Shown in pieces: positions 59,641-64,000 of a stretch of DNA of 64,000 nt; within the stretch, counting starts at the first letter, position 1; every line of letters starts with the position of its first letter. The stretch comes from Flagellatimonas centrodinii (GTDB lineage: Bacteria > Pseudomonadota > Gammaproteobacteria > Nevskiales > Nevskiaceae). The DNA is taken from positions 1,736,001-1,800,000 of the forward strand of contig NZ_CP092104.1 in the NCBI RefSeq assembly GCF_016918765.2. Direction: 5' to 3'. The position numbers and the translations under genes are program-made. Below the pieces are notes generated by a model that made no database searches, was not told the origin of the DNA, and saw only the letters and a list, made by a program, of their open reading frames with translations.

Positions 59641-60267
59641 ATGACACAGAATCCCTTTGCTCGCGCGCAGTTCCTGTTGTCCTGCGCCCGCACCGCGCAG
59701 CTACCCGACGACCGCGCGCCGGAGATCGCCTTTGCCGGCCGCTCCAATGCCGGCAAGTCGTCGGCGCTGAACGCGCTGTGTGGCCAGAAGCAGCTGGCAC
59801 GTGTGTCCAAGACCCCCGGCCGCACCCAGCTGTTGAACCTGTTCGAGGTGCCCGGCGGGCGGCTGGTCGACCTGCCCGGCTATGGTTATGCCCAGGTCCC
59901 CGGCGAGGTGCGGCGGGACTGGGGCAAGCTGATCGGCGCGTACATGGAAACCCGGGACAACCTTATCGGTGCCGTGCTGATCATGGACATCCGGCACCCC
60001 TTGACCGATTTCGACACCCAGATGCTCGACTGGTCCGCCAGCCGCCGCCTGCCGGTGCACTGCCTGCTGACCAAGGCCGACAAACTCGGTTACGGCGCGG
60101 CCAAGAACACCTTGCTGCAGGTGCAGCAGGCGATCACTGATCGTGACCAGCCGGAGACCACGGTGGCGCTGTTTTCGTCGACCAGCCGGCAGGGGCTCGA
60201 CCCGGCACGTCAGCACCTGATGGGCTGGCTGGGGATCGGCCCCGACGGTCAGCCGCTGGCAGCCTGA
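59641..60267 (+). CDS. engB: Ribosome biogenesis GTPase YihA/YsxC (EngB)
   Basis: 208-residue GTPase for 50S subunit assembly. G1 FAGRSNAGKSSALNAL, G2 region SKTPGRTQLLN, G3 DLPGYGYAQV, G4 TKADKL. All typical. TTG at 59638 directly before ATG 59641 is not needed. Located near polA as in many Gammaproteobacteria, though here with an extra gene and a repeat region in between. Confidence 0.96.
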   Translation: MTQNPFARAQFLLSCARTAQLPDDRAPEIAFAGRSNAGKSSALNALCGQKQLARVSKTPGRTQLLNLFEVPGGRLVDLPGYGYAQVPGEVRRDWGKLIGAYMETRDNLIGAVLIMDIRHPLTDFDTQMLDWSASRRLPVHCLLTKADKLGYGAAKNTLLQVQQAITDRDQPETTVALFSSTSRQGLDPARQHLMGWLGIGPDGQPLAA

Positions 60268-60309
60268 CCGCCGCCTCACGCCTCACGCCTCACCTATTGG
60301 AGTAACGCC

Positions 60310-61542
60310 ATGTCGCAGCCGGAATTTGATGTCGTGGTCTTCGGCGCCACCAGTTTCGTCGGCCAGATTCTCACGCAGTATCTGTTCGATCGCCATGGCG
60401 CCGGCAGCGCCGAGCTGCGCTGGGCATTGGCGGGACGCTCGCAAGCCAAGCTGGCCCAGGTGCGGGGCGGGCTTGGCGAGAGTGCAGCCGACCTGCCGCT
60501 GATCGTCGCCGATGCTGCCGACTCGGCGGCACTGACCGCGCTCTGCAGCCGGACCCGGGCGGTCATCTCCACCGTCGGGCCGTACGCGCTCTACGGGACG
60601 CCATTGGTCGAAGCCTGCGTCGACAGCGGCACCGATTATTGCGACCTCACGGGCGAGGTCCAGTGGATCGACGAGATGATCCGTCGCTTCGAGACCCGGG
60701 CTCAGGCCTCCGGGGCGCGCATCGTCCACTGCTGTGGTTTTGACTCGATCCCCTCCGATCTCGGCCAGTGGGTGTTGCAGCAGGCATCGCAGCGGCAGCT
60801 CGGGGCGCCCTGCACAACCGTGAAGATGCGGGTCAAGGCGCTGCGCGGCGGGTTTTCCGGCGGCACCGTGGCCAGTCTGATGAACGTTTTCAAGCTGGCC
60901 AGCGAAGACCCGGCGCTGCGCAAGAAGCTCGGCGATCCCTACCTGTTGTGCCCGGACGACCGGCGTGGCGAAGGTCGACAGCCGAACGTCAAGGGGCCCG
61001 CGCTCGATCCCGACTTCCAGGCCTGGGTGGCGCCGTTCGTGATGGCCGGGATCAACACCCGCGTGGTGCAGCGTTCGAATGCGCTCAGCCAGCAGGCCTG
61101 GGGTACCCGCTTCCGCTACGACGAGGCGATGCTCACCGGCAAGGGGTTCAAGGGACGGCTGTCGGCCATCGGCCTCACCGCCGGGCTTGGCGGCTTTCTG
61201 CTCGGCGCCGCGCTACCACCGACCCGGTGGGTCCTTGAGCGCTTCGTCGTGCCCAAGCCCGGCGAGGGTCCCAGCCCGGCGGCGCAGGCCAGTGGGTTCT
61301 TCGACCTGCGATTCCATGGCACCACTGATGATGGCCGCTCGATGCGGGCCAAGGTCACCGGCGATCGCGACCCCGGCTATGGCTCGACCGGCAAGATGCT
61401 GGGCGAAGCCGGCGCCTGCCTGGCGCGCGATATCCCCGACCTGCCCGGTGGTTTCTGGACCCCTGCCACCGCCTTCGGCCAGAAACTGGTCGACCGCCTG
61501 CAGGATCATGCCGGCCTTCATTTCGAGGTGGCGGAGGGCTGA
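60310..61542 (+). CDS. Saccharopine dehydrogenase-like / trans-acting enoyl reductase family protein
   Basis: 410 residues. N-terminal Rossmann motif VVFGATSFVGQILTQYL, then TVGPYALYGTPLVEACVDSGTDYCDLTGE, and IVHCCGFDSIPSDLG, which are the hallmarks of the family containing mycobacterial trans-acting enoyl reductases and saccharopine dehydrogenase-like oxidoreductases. A hydrophobic stretch (LSAIGLTAGLGGFLLGAAL, about 285-303) may contact membrane. Likely a lipid-linked NAD(P)H reductase; substrate unknown. SD GGAGT 7 nt before ATG 60310. Confidence 0.88.
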   Translation: MSQPEFDVVVFGATSFVGQILTQYLFDRHGAGSAELRWALAGRSQAKLAQVRGGLGESAADLPLIVADAADSAALTALCSRTRAVISTVGPYALYGTPLVEACVDSGTDYCDLTGEVQWIDEMIRRFETRAQASGARIVHCCGFDSIPSDLGQWVLQQASQRQLGAPCTTVKMRVKALRGGFSGGTVASLMNVFKLASEDPALRKKLGDPYLLCPDDRRGEGRQPNVKGPALDPDFQAWVAPFVMAGINTRVVQRSNALSQQAWGTRFRYDEAMLTGKGFKGRLSAIGLTAGLGGFLLGAALPPTRWVLERFVVPKPGEGPSPAAQASGFFDLRFHGTTDDGRSMRAKVTGDRDPGYGSTGKMLGEAGACLARDIPDLPGGFWTPATAFGQKLVDRLQDHAGLHFEVAEG

Positions 61543-61585
61543 GTCCTGAACCCGGCCAAGGCGTGAACCCCTTTTAGCGCGACAA

Positions 61586-61757
61586 GGGTTTCAAACAAAA
61601 ACGCCCGGTGGTCGGGGAAACCACCGGGCGACCAACTCCGGCCTAAGGGGGGAGCCGGAATTCCGCCCAGGGAGAGGAGGCGGGAGTGACGGAAGGGAGG
61701 ACCGCCACTCGCAGACTTGGAGGGCGTCGCCGCAAGGAAGTTCCCGCCCCCCGAACG
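61586..61757 (+). repeat. Structured direct repeat, copy 1
   Basis: Opens with GGTTTCAA and carries hairpins in order: A, perfect 11-bp stem CGCCCGGTGGT at 61601-61629; B, TCCGGC/GCCGGA at 61636-61658; C, CCGCC/GGCGG at 61662-61682; D, 9-bp stem with one mismatch at 61683-61709. All recur in copy 2 at 62022-62196. End point approximate. Confidence 0.9.
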
Positions 61758-61817
61758 GAAACTGTGAAATCGCCACAGCGCGCCGTTAGCGAGGGTTGTT
61801 TGAGGAACTCCGGGCAA

Positions 61818-62030
61818 CGTTGAAACCGCCGTGAAGCGTAGCGAGCGAAGGCTGGCTGAAAGCCGCCGGAGCGCAGGAAGCGGAATGTATCGAGAGATAC
61901 ATGAGCATTTGTCAGGCACATCCGTGTGCCTGCCCCCTTCGGGGCTACGCGCAGTTTTCGTTCCAGACGAAACTGTCGAGCACCGCCTGCTTTCAGCCAG
62001 TCGAGCGCAGTAGCTTCACGGTGGTTTCAA
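61818..62030 (+). ncRNA. Candidate structured RNA or palindromic element, 213 nt
   Basis: A 19-bp outer helix (61818-61836 with 62012-62030; 18 Watson-Crick pairs and one G-T, which is a G-U wobble in plus-strand RNA) and a 12-bp perfect inner helix (61851-61862 with 61988-61999) enclose four hairpins: 61884-61901 (7 bp, GAGA loop), 61913-61930 (7 bp, TCCG loop), 61931-61944 (5 bp) and 61951-61974 (9 bp, one bulge). GNRA and UNCG type loops are typical of RNA. No promoter or family match was identified, so a palindromic mobile repeat is the alternative. Confidence 0.5.
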
Positions 62031-62196
62031 CAGAAAGCGCCCGGTGGTTGGGGACACCACCGGGCGACCAGCTCCGGCCATTGGGGGATGCCGGAATTCC
62101 GCCCAGGGAGTGGAGGCGGGAGCAACGGAAGGGATGGCCGTTCCTCGCAAACTTGGAACGTCGGCGGGTGCGGAAGTTCCGGGGGGGTGCACGGAC
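62022..62196 (+). repeat. Structured direct repeat, copy 2
   Basis: Same orientation as copy 1, about three quarters identical. Hairpin A recurs perfectly (62037-62065, with the loop changed), B and C recur, and D (62119-62145) shows a compensatory change: G61687-C61705 of copy 1 is A62123-T62141 here, and the A-C mismatch of copy 1 is an A-T pair here. Its first 9 bases are the right end of the 213-nt fold. Confidence 0.9.
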
Positions 62197-62321
62197 GCCA
62201 ACGCGACACAACCCGTAAGCAAAATCTCACACTTGAAAATCAACCATTTAGCGAGGGGTGGGACGCATCCTGGCCGTGGATGATGTCAATAAAATATTTC
62301 ACAAACAACACGTTGCGAGTT

Positions 62322-64000
62322 CTATCCGTGGGAAGCGTCCCAGTTGGCTCCGAGGCCCGGTTCGGCGACCAACGGTACCGTCAGCACGGATGAACGGCAC
62401 ATGCGTGCCGACAGAACCGGCCCGAGCTCGCGGAGCATGGCCTCGGGGCCTTCGAACACCAGTTCGTCGTGTACCTGCATGATCATCCGCACCTCGGGCG
62501 CTTCATCTTGCAGGAACCCATGGACGTCAAGCATGGCGGCCTTGATGAGATCGGCAGCCGTGCCCTGCAGCGGCGCGTTGATGGCGGTGCGCTCGGCATA
62601 CTGACGCTGTGCCGCGTTGCGGGCGTTGATGTTGGGTAGGTACAACCGGCGACCGCGCAGGGTTTCGACAAAGCCTTGTTCGCGCGCCCGCTCACGGGTG
62701 CCGTCCATGAAGGCCTTGACCCCCGGGTAGCGGGCAAAGAAACGTTCGATGATTTCGGCCGCCTCATTGCGGCCGACGCCGATGTTGCGAGCCAGGCCGA
62801 AGGCGGAGATGCCGTAGATCAGCCCGAAGTTGATCGCCTTGGCGGCACGACGTTGTTCGCTGCTGACGGCATCGAGCGCCACCCCGAACACCTCGGCGGC
62901 AGTGGCGCGGTGGATGTCCTGGCCATTGCGGAAAGCCCCCAGCAGTTTGTCGTCGCCGGAGAAGTGCGCCATCAGTCGCAGTTCGATCTGTGAATAGTCG
63001 ATTGACAGCAGACTGCAGCCCTCGGCGGGCACGAAGGCCTGGCGGATGCGCCGGCCCTCGGCAGTACGGATCGGGATGTTCTGCAGGTTGGGGTCGGACG
63101 AGGACAGCCGGCCGGTGGCCGCGACCGCCTGGTGATAGCTGGTATGGATGCGCCCGGTCTTCGGGTTCACCATCTGCGGCAGGGTCTCGGTATAGGTCGA
63201 CCGCAGCTTGGCGACGCTGCGCCAGTCGAGGATCAGCCGCGGCAGCGGGTGCTCGTCGGCCAGCACTTCCAGTACGTCCTCGGCGGTGGAGGGCTCACCC
63301 TTCGGGGTCTTGCTCACCACCCGCAGGCCGAGCTGGTCGAACAGGATGGCGCCGAGCTGTTTCGGCGAGCCGAGGTTGAAGGGTTGGCCGGCCGCTTCGA
63401 AGCAGTCCTTCTCCAGGGTTTCCATGCGCTGCGCCAGCTCGGTACTGATGCGCTTGAGCAAGGGCACGTCGACGCCCACACCGTGGTACTCCATGTCGGC
63501 CAGTACCGGCACCAGCGGCATTTCCAGCTCACGATAGACCGCCTCCAGCGTGGGCTCGGCCTGCAGCCGCGGGAACAGCGTCTGATGGAGCCGCAGGGTG
63601 ATGTCGGCGTCTTCGGCGGAGTAGGGTGCCGCCTGCTCCAGTGCCACCTGGTTGAAGCTCAACTGCGCCTTGCCCTTGCCCGCGATGTCGGCAAAGGTGG
63701 TGGTGGTGTGGTCGAGGTACTTGCGCGCCAGGGTATCCATGTCGTGCCGGTGCCCGGCGGCGTCGAGCACGTAGCTTTGCAGCATGGTGTCGTGCGCGAC
63801 CCCCTGCACCTCGATGCCATGCCGGCGCAGCACATTGAGGTCGTATTTGAGGTGCTGGCCGACCTTGGGCCGGTCCGGGCTCTCCAGCAGCGGTTTCACC
63901 CGCGCCAACACCTCGGCCATGGGGAGCTGTTGCGGTGCGCCCATGTAGTCGTGCGCCAGCGGCACGTACCAGCCTTCGCCCGCCTTCACCGCAAAGGCCA
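62322..64000 (-). CDS. polA: DNA polymerase I (3' part; 5' end beyond window)
   Basis: About 559 C-terminal residues. The visible part begins in the 3'-5' exonuclease domain (GQHLKYDLNVL as Exo II, YSAEDADITLRL as Exo III, both acidic residues kept, so proofreading is likely) and contains the polymerase motifs A (DYSQIELRLMAH), B (RRAAKAINFGLIYGISAFG) and C (QVHDELVFE). The C-terminus NWDASHG is normal for the family. The N-terminal 5'-3' exonuclease lies outside the window. Transcribed leftward into the repeat region. Confidence 0.97.
   Translation of the reverse strand, partial: AFAVKAGEGWYVPLAHDYMGAPQQLPMAEVLARVKPLLESPDRPKVGQHLKYDLNVLRRHGIEVQGVAHDTMLQSYVLDAAGHRHDMDTLARKYLDHTTTTFADIAGKGKAQLSFNQVALEQAAPYSAEDADITLRLHQTLFPRLQAEPTLEAVYRELEMPLVPVLADMEYHGVGVDVPLLKRISTELAQRMETLEKDCFEAAGQPFNLGSPKQLGAILFDQLGLRVVSKTPKGEPSTAEDVLEVLADEHPLPRLILDWRSVAKLRSTYTETLPQMVNPKTGRIHTSYHQAVAATGRLSSSDPNLQNIPIRTAEGRRIRQAFVPAEGCSLLSIDYSQIELRLMAHFSGDDKLLGAFRNGQDIHRATAAEVFGVALDAVSSEQRRAAKAINFGLIYGISAFGLARNIGVGRNEAAEIIERFFARYPGVKAFMDGTRERAREQGFVETLRGRRLYLPNINARNAAQRQYAERTAINAPLQGTAADLIKAAMLDVHGFLQDEAPEVRMIMQVHDELVFEGPEAMLRELGPVLSARMCRSSVLTVPLVAEPGLGANWDASHG

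Follow-up and report, generated by a model that had tools for sequence, protein, structure and literature searches.

A dispersed palindromic element between two predicted tandem anti-hemB-like sRNA genes downstream of polA in Flagellatimonas centrodinii

Here we describe the intergenic region downstream of polA in a 64,000-nt stretch of the Flagellatimonas centrodinii genome (hereafter the window; contig NZ_CP092104.1, positions 1,736,001 to 1,800,000). As a sequence-only reading of this DNA had placed it, the region lies between polA (PF00476 and NCBIfam) and a reductase-like gene (PF03435), and it comprises two direct repeats of 135 nt (61587-61721 and 62023-62157; identity 84%) with a 213-nt palindromic structure between them (Table 1). 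In the relative G001 the gene order, read by eye, is polA, sRNA, sRNA and a convergent engB, and the reductase-like gene of the window occupies the position held by engB (by eye) in that genome. A 192-aa open reading frame at 59701-60279 was considered as EngB and ruled out, as it has no Pfam or NCBIfam match. The central structure is bounded by an inverted repeat of 19 nt (61819-61837 and 62013-62031; 95% complementary), the sole imperfect position of which is a G-T on the plus strand, as noted earlier from the letters and seen again in the inverted repeat alignment; a second inverted repeat (61852-61872 and 61980-62000) is 21 nt long and 86% complementary. A sigma-70 scan of 61500-62330 gave no promoter-like site on either strand (other promoter types fall outside such a scan), and the region had no plasmid match.

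A similarity search of the own genome and 60 relatives returned matches in 43 of the 61 genomes (own included). In the relatives these matches form two sets at separate places: direct-repeat matches cover query positions ~50-200 and 490-600, and central-structure matches ~290-445. Because the direct repeats and the central structure match at different places, they are separate units, and a single RNA spanning the whole region was ruled out by this difference in distribution. The sequence-only reading had taken the region as one unit and proposed for it a structured RNA or, alternatively, a repeat of REPIN/MITE type; the repeat reading was right for the central 213 nt, and the units number two, not one.

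Table 1. Features of the polA-downstream region (window coordinates).
Feature	Position	Strand	Basis
Reductase-like gene, saccharopine dehydrogenase NADP domain	60310..61542	+	PF03435, E 3.5e-10
Second tandem sRNA gene copy, predicted (anti-hemB-like)	61592..61722	-	44.0 bits, E 6.7e-9; fold z -5.3
Predicted terminator of second sRNA copy, tail TTTTTGTTTG	61630-61602	-	Terminator scan
Promoter-like sequence of second sRNA: GAACTT 61738-61743, 16 nt, TCCAAG 61716-61721	61716..61743	-	Sequence
Whole palindromic element, window copy including module 2	61817..62033	+	Covariance model R1, 94.1 bits, E 5.3e-26
Outer helix 5' arm (TIR-like)	61819..61837	+	Inverted repeat, pairs with 62013-62031
Conserved segment A, GTAGCGAGCGAAGG	61838..61851	+	Invariant or nearly invariant columns, alignment A1
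Inner helix 5' arm	61852..61863	+	Inverted repeat; fold
Conserved segment B with apical hairpin TGTATC-GAGA-GATACA	61868..61909	+	Alignment A1; fold
Module 2, hairpins including GTCAGGCACA-TCCG-TGTGCCTGcC and GCCCC-TTCG-GGGGC	61910..61976	+	Separate nested palindrome, placed elsewhere in own-genome L002/L003
Conserved segment CGAGCACCG, 3' side of second internal loop	61977..61985	+	Alignment A1
Inner helix 3' arm	61989..62000	+	Inverted repeat
Conserved segment C, TCGAGCGCAGTA	62001..62012	+	Alignment A1
Outer helix 3' arm	62013..62031	+	Inverted repeat
sRNA gene copy nearer polA, predicted (anti-hemB-like), C-rich-loop hairpins then terminator	62028..62158	-	39.0 bits, E 1.7e-7; fold z -2.6
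Predicted terminator of polA-near sRNA copy, tail CTTTCTGTTG	62066-62038	-	Terminator scan
Predicted sigmaE/AlgU-type promoter of polA-near sRNA: GAACTT 62174-62179, 16 nt, TCCAAG 62152-62157	62152..62179	-	Sequence; GAACTT position common to relatives
polA, C-terminal part	62322..63989	-	PF00476, E 1.8e-157; NCBIfam DNA polymerase I

On sequence grounds, the direct repeats are two predicted sRNA genes that lie in tandem on the minus strand, downstream of polA, and that are homologous to the Rfam family anti-hemB (RF02837). Both copies fit the three-hairpin model at full length (1-81), with terminators taken from the scan, and both were found at permissive thresholds below the gathering cutoff of 49.5 bits. 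One of the two also matches Pseudomon-1/ErsA (RF01719) weakly (24.7 bits). As minus-strand RNA each repeat forms four hairpins, in keeping with the earlier count for the flanking repeats (fold z -5.3 and -2.6); three of the four have C-rich loops, and each repeat has a terminator-like end. For the paired change described in hairpin D between the copies, one G-C to A-U change stands, and one pair is lost in the copy nearer polA; in that copy the T-tract of the terminator is interrupted (CTTTCTGTTG versus TTTTTGTTTG in the other copy). Behind the second terminator, at 61564-61593, the minus strand has a short palindrome (TGAAACCCTT...AAGGGGTTCA) that resembles the start of the central element's outer arm.

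An anti-hemB match was present in all 20 of the relatives' sRNA loci searched, a subset of the loci returned by the similarity search of the 60 relatives; these loci hold 28 copies, 7 of them above the cutoff, and two loci (L028 and L029, in G005 and G016) carry three tandem copies, not two. An exact GAACTT starts 52-59 nt before the start of the model match in 21 of 30 copies, both window copies included, and many relatives carry, by eye, TCTAA or TCTGA downstream of it. GAACTT with a spaced downstream box corresponds to the consensus of sigmaE/AlgU promoters. A polA-linked position is also that of Spot 42 in E. coli. Like the window sRNAs, ErsA and anti-hemB lie downstream of polA on the same strand and have a GAACTT box; the window pair differs in its scores, which are below the Rfam cutoffs, and in its tandem arrangement. 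The available text of PMC7565897 describes ErsA as strictly sigma22-dependent. The direct repeats, which the sequence-only reading had included under 'undescribed', thus resemble a known family, and the pair would bring the theme of a polA-linked, envelope-stress-type sRNA to this bacterial family, as a tandem.

The central structure, 213 nt long here, represents a palindromic element of ~150 nt that occurs in dispersed copies. Covariance model R1 recovers it at full extent and finds no further match in the 64-kb window at E up to 0.01. The plus-strand RNA fold of 61815-62035 reaches -116.9 kcal/mol (mean of the shuffles -74.9, z -9.6; none of 200 shuffles as good), and the minus-strand fold -110.9 (z -8.2). 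The plus-strand fold consists of nested helices with GAGA, TCCG and TTCG hairpin loops, so that the nested helices and the GAGA and TCCG hairpins first picked out by inspection are recovered in the fold. From the outside inwards, the element is composed of a variable outer helix, a conserved TAGCGAGCGAAGG opposite GAGCGCAGTAG, a variable inner helix, a conserved GGAGCGCAGGAA opposite TTCCGAGCACC, and a small apical hairpin with a GGA/TGA loop.

The window copy carries 67 extra nucleotides (module 2) between GAGCATT and CGAGCACCG. Module 2 occurs at another place, in the inner helix arm, in two own-genome copies (L002 and L003) and, at the same position as in the window, in L053 (G003), and two further copies (L072 and L078) hold other palindromes at that position. 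Its main hairpin is present at three places in the own genome, three in G003, two in G027 and one in G032, and is absent from the 5 other genomes searched. R1 finds nothing at three of the module-2 places (L267, L268 and L271); module 2 can therefore stand alone.

Further copies of the element, anticipated if the structure was a repeat or an RNA family, are numerous. In the own genome R1 gave 7 matches, and BLAST gave 7 partial matches at 5 loci besides the window locus: L002-L004 are MITE-like places, and L005 and L006 are the spacers that precede 23S rRNA in two operons. In these two operons (1481-1631 of L005 and L006) the element lies just before the 23S rRNA gene and could affect pre-rRNA processing. 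A lone right half ending in GTTGTGCAGAGGTTCC, by eye apparently a truncated copy, lies at ~1455-1516 of L046 (own-genome C1, ~1577339), where R1 has no match. Across the order, R1 matches were found in 47 of 85 genomes, with no more than 33 in any one genome; six genomes have 21-33, and some congeners have none. Among genomes drawn from the class, 120 of 369 had matches; at most 8 candidates were scored per genome in this search, so per-genome counts are at least those obtained, and weak matches may include other hairpins. All 26 class loci that were rechecked match R1 at E up to 1e-9, the weakest of them (for example L208) keeping only part of the loop letters. An exact-pattern scan returned 21 stretches, all with R1 matches, from Rudaea cellulosilytica (6 of 21), Nevskia, Stenotrophobium, Nevskiaceae, Rhodanobacter/Rhodanobacteraceae and unclassified MAGs. 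By R1 search, the element is missing from all 20 of the relatives' sRNA loci.

Alignment A1 was built by sequence only: of 45 loci scanned, 8 had no match, 37 copies were extracted, and 24 (149-152 nt, good core) were used, leaving out 13 with insertions or a poor core. It has 154 columns, 26 of them invariant and clustered in segments A, B and C, and RNAalifold predicts 52 pairs from it, 39 of which are kept while altered on both sides. A larger set of 95 loci, most of which lack large insertions, gave 96 matches (at 94 of the loci) and 95 distinct rows; this alignment was fitted to R1 and is hence biased towards the structure being counted. Over its 95 rows, 47 of the 52 pairs change on both sides (35.4 in shuffled alignments). 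The paired share of cells is 94.9%, compared with 70.3% after shuffling and 33-41% after sliding, and covariation scores 0.653 (0.188 shuffled, 0.084-0.114 slid). The evidence for covariation of the element structure, which had been expected of an RNA or repeat family, is strong. Element length is 149-152 nt in 87 of the 96 aligned matches, from sources in which large insertions were mostly omitted, and the outer helix comprises 17 pairs with 93.5% of cells paired in 95 copies. In G039 and G046, the only two genomes of their genus that were compared, the element follows the rpsG stop codon and precedes fusA (genes by eye; 238-388 of L077 and 280-429 of L068). Between these two copies both helices differ by paired changes and most loop letters are the same, which argues for structural constraint after insertion; gene conversion or a second insertion is a possible alternative for this pair. 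In L103, L105, L108 and L115 the reverse strand is also significant in the R1 search (32-46 bits), as near-perfect palindromes should be.

The pairs also distinguish the two strands. Read on the plus strand, G-U exceeds A-C by 161 to 54 over 48 of the 52 pairs in 93 copies, in line with the plus-strand G-U pairing proposed from the window copy. This count leaves out pairs 1, 18, 36 and 47 (two constant G-U, one odd, and the outermost) and drops 3 of 96 rows (a duplicate locus, a reverse-strand match and a partial neighbour); over all 52 pairs the figures are 305 and 106. By helix, G-U/A-C is 69/20 in the outer, 53/15 in the inner and 17/14 in the apical helix. Copy by copy, over the outer and inner helices, G-U is in excess in 51, the reverse holds in 9 and 33 are tied, and the excess persists after clustering at 70-90% identity (42 to 9, 38 to 8 and 17 to 1). 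Folding favours the plus strand in 74 of 93 copies. When the pairs are derived from the minus strand, the excess shrinks to 38 versus 21, so part of the effect is due to the choice of structure; weakened by this control, the data suggest that the plus strand is the folded strand of the element. The flanking genes mostly read through its minus strand, with reading direction taken from a crude ORF caller that uses GC by codon position. In the 32 copies whose neighbours read through the minus strand, G-U still exceeds A-C by 57 to 20, and in 14 convergent copies the difference (17 versus 10) is not significant. The minus-strand read-through of the neighbours is unexplained by a plus-strand fold, and the one-strand signal is the least explained of our results.

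Insertion sites were compared with stop codons of open frames of at least 240 nt in 83 of 111 candidate copies, the others having less than 260 nt of flank or identical sequence. The right end of the element lies at the stop of a minus-strand open frame in 50 of these 83 (TAG in 23, TGA in 22 and TAA in 5), at offsets of 1-7 and mostly 4-5. The left end lies at a plus-strand stop in 16, both ends lie at stops in 8 copies, and random flank positions fall at stops in 3.1% (right) and 4.6% (left) of cases. The asymmetry between the two orientations has a p value of 3e-5, which is too small because the copies are related to one another. The window copy fits this pattern, since its right arm starts directly behind the terminator of a minus-strand sRNA. 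Movement of the element in the past is supported by its dispersal and by a filled and empty site: G001 and G004 lack the copy that the own genome carries in its rRNA spacer. In G001 and G002 the spacers between the tandem sRNAs have diverged too far, by eye, to give an exact empty site for the window copy. Target duplications are weak overall. Symmetric end repeats of 4 nt were seen in 15 of 93 copies (shuffled mean 4.1, maximum 13) and are partly the self-complementary CTAG and TTAA; those of 3 nt (14 versus 10.3, maximum 20) and 2 nt (46 versus 30.9, maximum 47) are within the shuffles. Some copies have a clear direct end repeat by eye, such as TGA in L118, and at the window copy no target duplication was seen by eye. 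No autonomous partner with the same ends at IS distance was found in the own genome, G067, G003 or G001 (one end type per search, with G067 fragmented). No second own-genome element with the window's outer arm was found; the one other exact 16-nt match lies in a stretch without an element.

The 213-nt structure is thus probably a copy of a non-autonomous, MITE-like element (~150 nt plus the nested module) that inserted behind the terminator of the first tandem sRNA. The element is short and multi-copy and has terminal inverted repeats, as MITEs do. It might instead be primarily a functional plus-strand RNA family, acting in trans or in cis, with purine-rich internal loops that bind a protein and with incidental dispersal. 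The GNRA/UNCG loops of the window copy, the purine-rich internal loops conserved in A1, the better plus-strand folds with their G-U excess, and the compensatory changes at the shared rpsG-fusA site are what such a family would show; yet the very uneven counts among congeners look like those of a mobile repeat, most flanking genes read through the other strand, and the sigma-70 scan gave no promoter-like site, so that we consider this account unlikely. Somewhat less likely still is transfer of the element as folded single-stranded DNA (the plus strand) by an HUH-type or other strand-specific enzyme. Such transfer would explain both selection on one strand and oriented insertion at stop codons, and the G-U/A-C asymmetry does persist in the copies whose neighbours read through the other strand. 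Against it, Y1_Tnp (Y1/RAYT, PF01797; the one HUH family searched) is present in 7 of the 10 carrier genomes searched and has no match in the own genome, G003 or G033, and of the 10 Y1_Tnp loci in those 7 genomes one holds an R1 match, a weak one (19.8 bits).

The absence of Y1/RAYT from the host genome also bears on the REPIN option of the sequence-only reading, in which a RAYT mobilises paired REP sequences. The element is palindromic and intergenic and contains GTAG, as a REPIN might, but it is a ~150-nt unit with one continuous covarying hairpin, and we disfavour a REPIN as highly improbable. The window's outer arms could also be host-derived, the core having inserted into a hairpin that already lay behind the sRNA terminator. 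By eye, both sRNA terminators have TTGAAACC behind them, and a short palindrome of its own (TGAAACCCTT/AAGGGGTTCA) comes after the second sRNA. These 8 shared letters may, however, have arisen by chance or mark the border of the duplicated sRNA segment; moreover, the outer helix accompanies the core throughout the 95 aligned copies, and core and arms are absent together from the relatives' rRNA spacer. We rate this origin of the arms about as improbable as single-stranded DNA transfer.

Under the MITE-like reading, the insertion would lie immediately behind the terminator of the first sRNA gene of the tandem, both genes being sigmaE-type and anti-hemB/ErsA-like, and the element would most likely be a trans-mobilised MITE with a selected fold. 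Transposases acting in trans would recognise the terminal helix and duplicate short, often TA-containing targets, the folded strand would be the plus strand, and the purine-rich internal loops would be kept by selection. At each site the element would act as a mostly neutral-to-mild 3' hairpin in the protection or processing of mRNA ends, as reported for ERIC and NEMIS. Its effect at the window locus is probably small, because both promoter-like boxes and both terminator hairpins of the sRNAs remain; it would leave both sRNAs on but lengthen any read-through transcript from the first. A short repeat with an elaborate covarying fold that sits on stop codons offers a test case for the movement of MITEs and for their action after insertion (mRNA 3'-end processing and orientation effects).

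Among known families, sX9 (RF02228) matches part of the element. The Rfam search that had been proposed gave no match at gathering score; at permissive thresholds both anti-hemB and sX9 appeared below their cutoffs. In the window, sX9 matches 61812..61902 on the minus strand with 26.8 bits (cutoff 44), that is, half of the element on the opposite strand. All 17 sX9 matches, from 6 of 41 genomes, fall on element copies, likewise on the opposite strand, with up to 43.6 bits, and at one of 10 loci searched (L118, in a Rhodanobacteraceae MAG) a match above the cutoff (51.7 bits) lies inside an element. The two differ in that sX9 has 76 positions, lies on the other strand and is filed as an sRNA gene, whereas the element is ~150 nt, palindromic and dispersed. 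Judging from the window's relatives and not from the Xanthomonas locus itself, sX9 may represent one half of a mobile element, on its opposite strand. If so, automatic annotation may count repeat copies as sRNA genes; sX9 stands in a survey's list of the most abundant bacterial sRNAs, in the portion of that survey available (PMC9029176). The accessible parts of the literature on the Xanthomonas sX9 sRNA contain no description of it as a repeat, and a search with the exact core strings returned only papers unrelated by title. Judged from literature searches on the core strings, sX9 and MITE/stop-codon themes, the element may be undescribed.

ERIC, NEMIS/Correia and other bacterial MITEs resemble the element in being short, palindromic, intergenic and present in many copies, and orientation-dependent effects on mRNA are described for ERIC in the available text of PMC2229807 and PMC10969869. 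ERIC is 127 bp long and the element ~150 nt, and homology between them was rejected: R1, run on three ERIC loci of E. coli plus a control stretch, scored at best 7.5 bits on ERIC (E 0.36 in 3.9 kb). The apical GGA/UGA loops of the two look alike by eye, a likeness unsupported by the model. Coxiella burnetii QMITE1 and QMITE2 are presented, in the excerpts available of PMC5896051 and PMC10969869, as MITEs at gene 3' ends and a source of sRNAs; they are likened to the element by description only, and QMITE2, unlike the element, has direct repeats of 7-11 nt and a REP. A wider proposal, which we hold as tentative and on the whole doubtful, is that of a Gammaproteobacteria-wide superfamily of ~150-nt mobile hairpins, under selection in the form of one folded strand (plus-strand RNA or single-stranded DNA), with oriented insertion at stop codons, near-invariant purine-rich loops and helices rewritten by compensation, to which sX9 and several anonymous repeat families would belong as fragments. 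Phage and plasmid origins were rejected: copy L085 has no phage match, and a single plasmid match was obtained, for copy L182 on a 4.9-Mb Aeromonas caviae record listed as a plasmid in PLSDB. The copy in this Aeromonas caviae record is a full-length R1 match at 60 bits.
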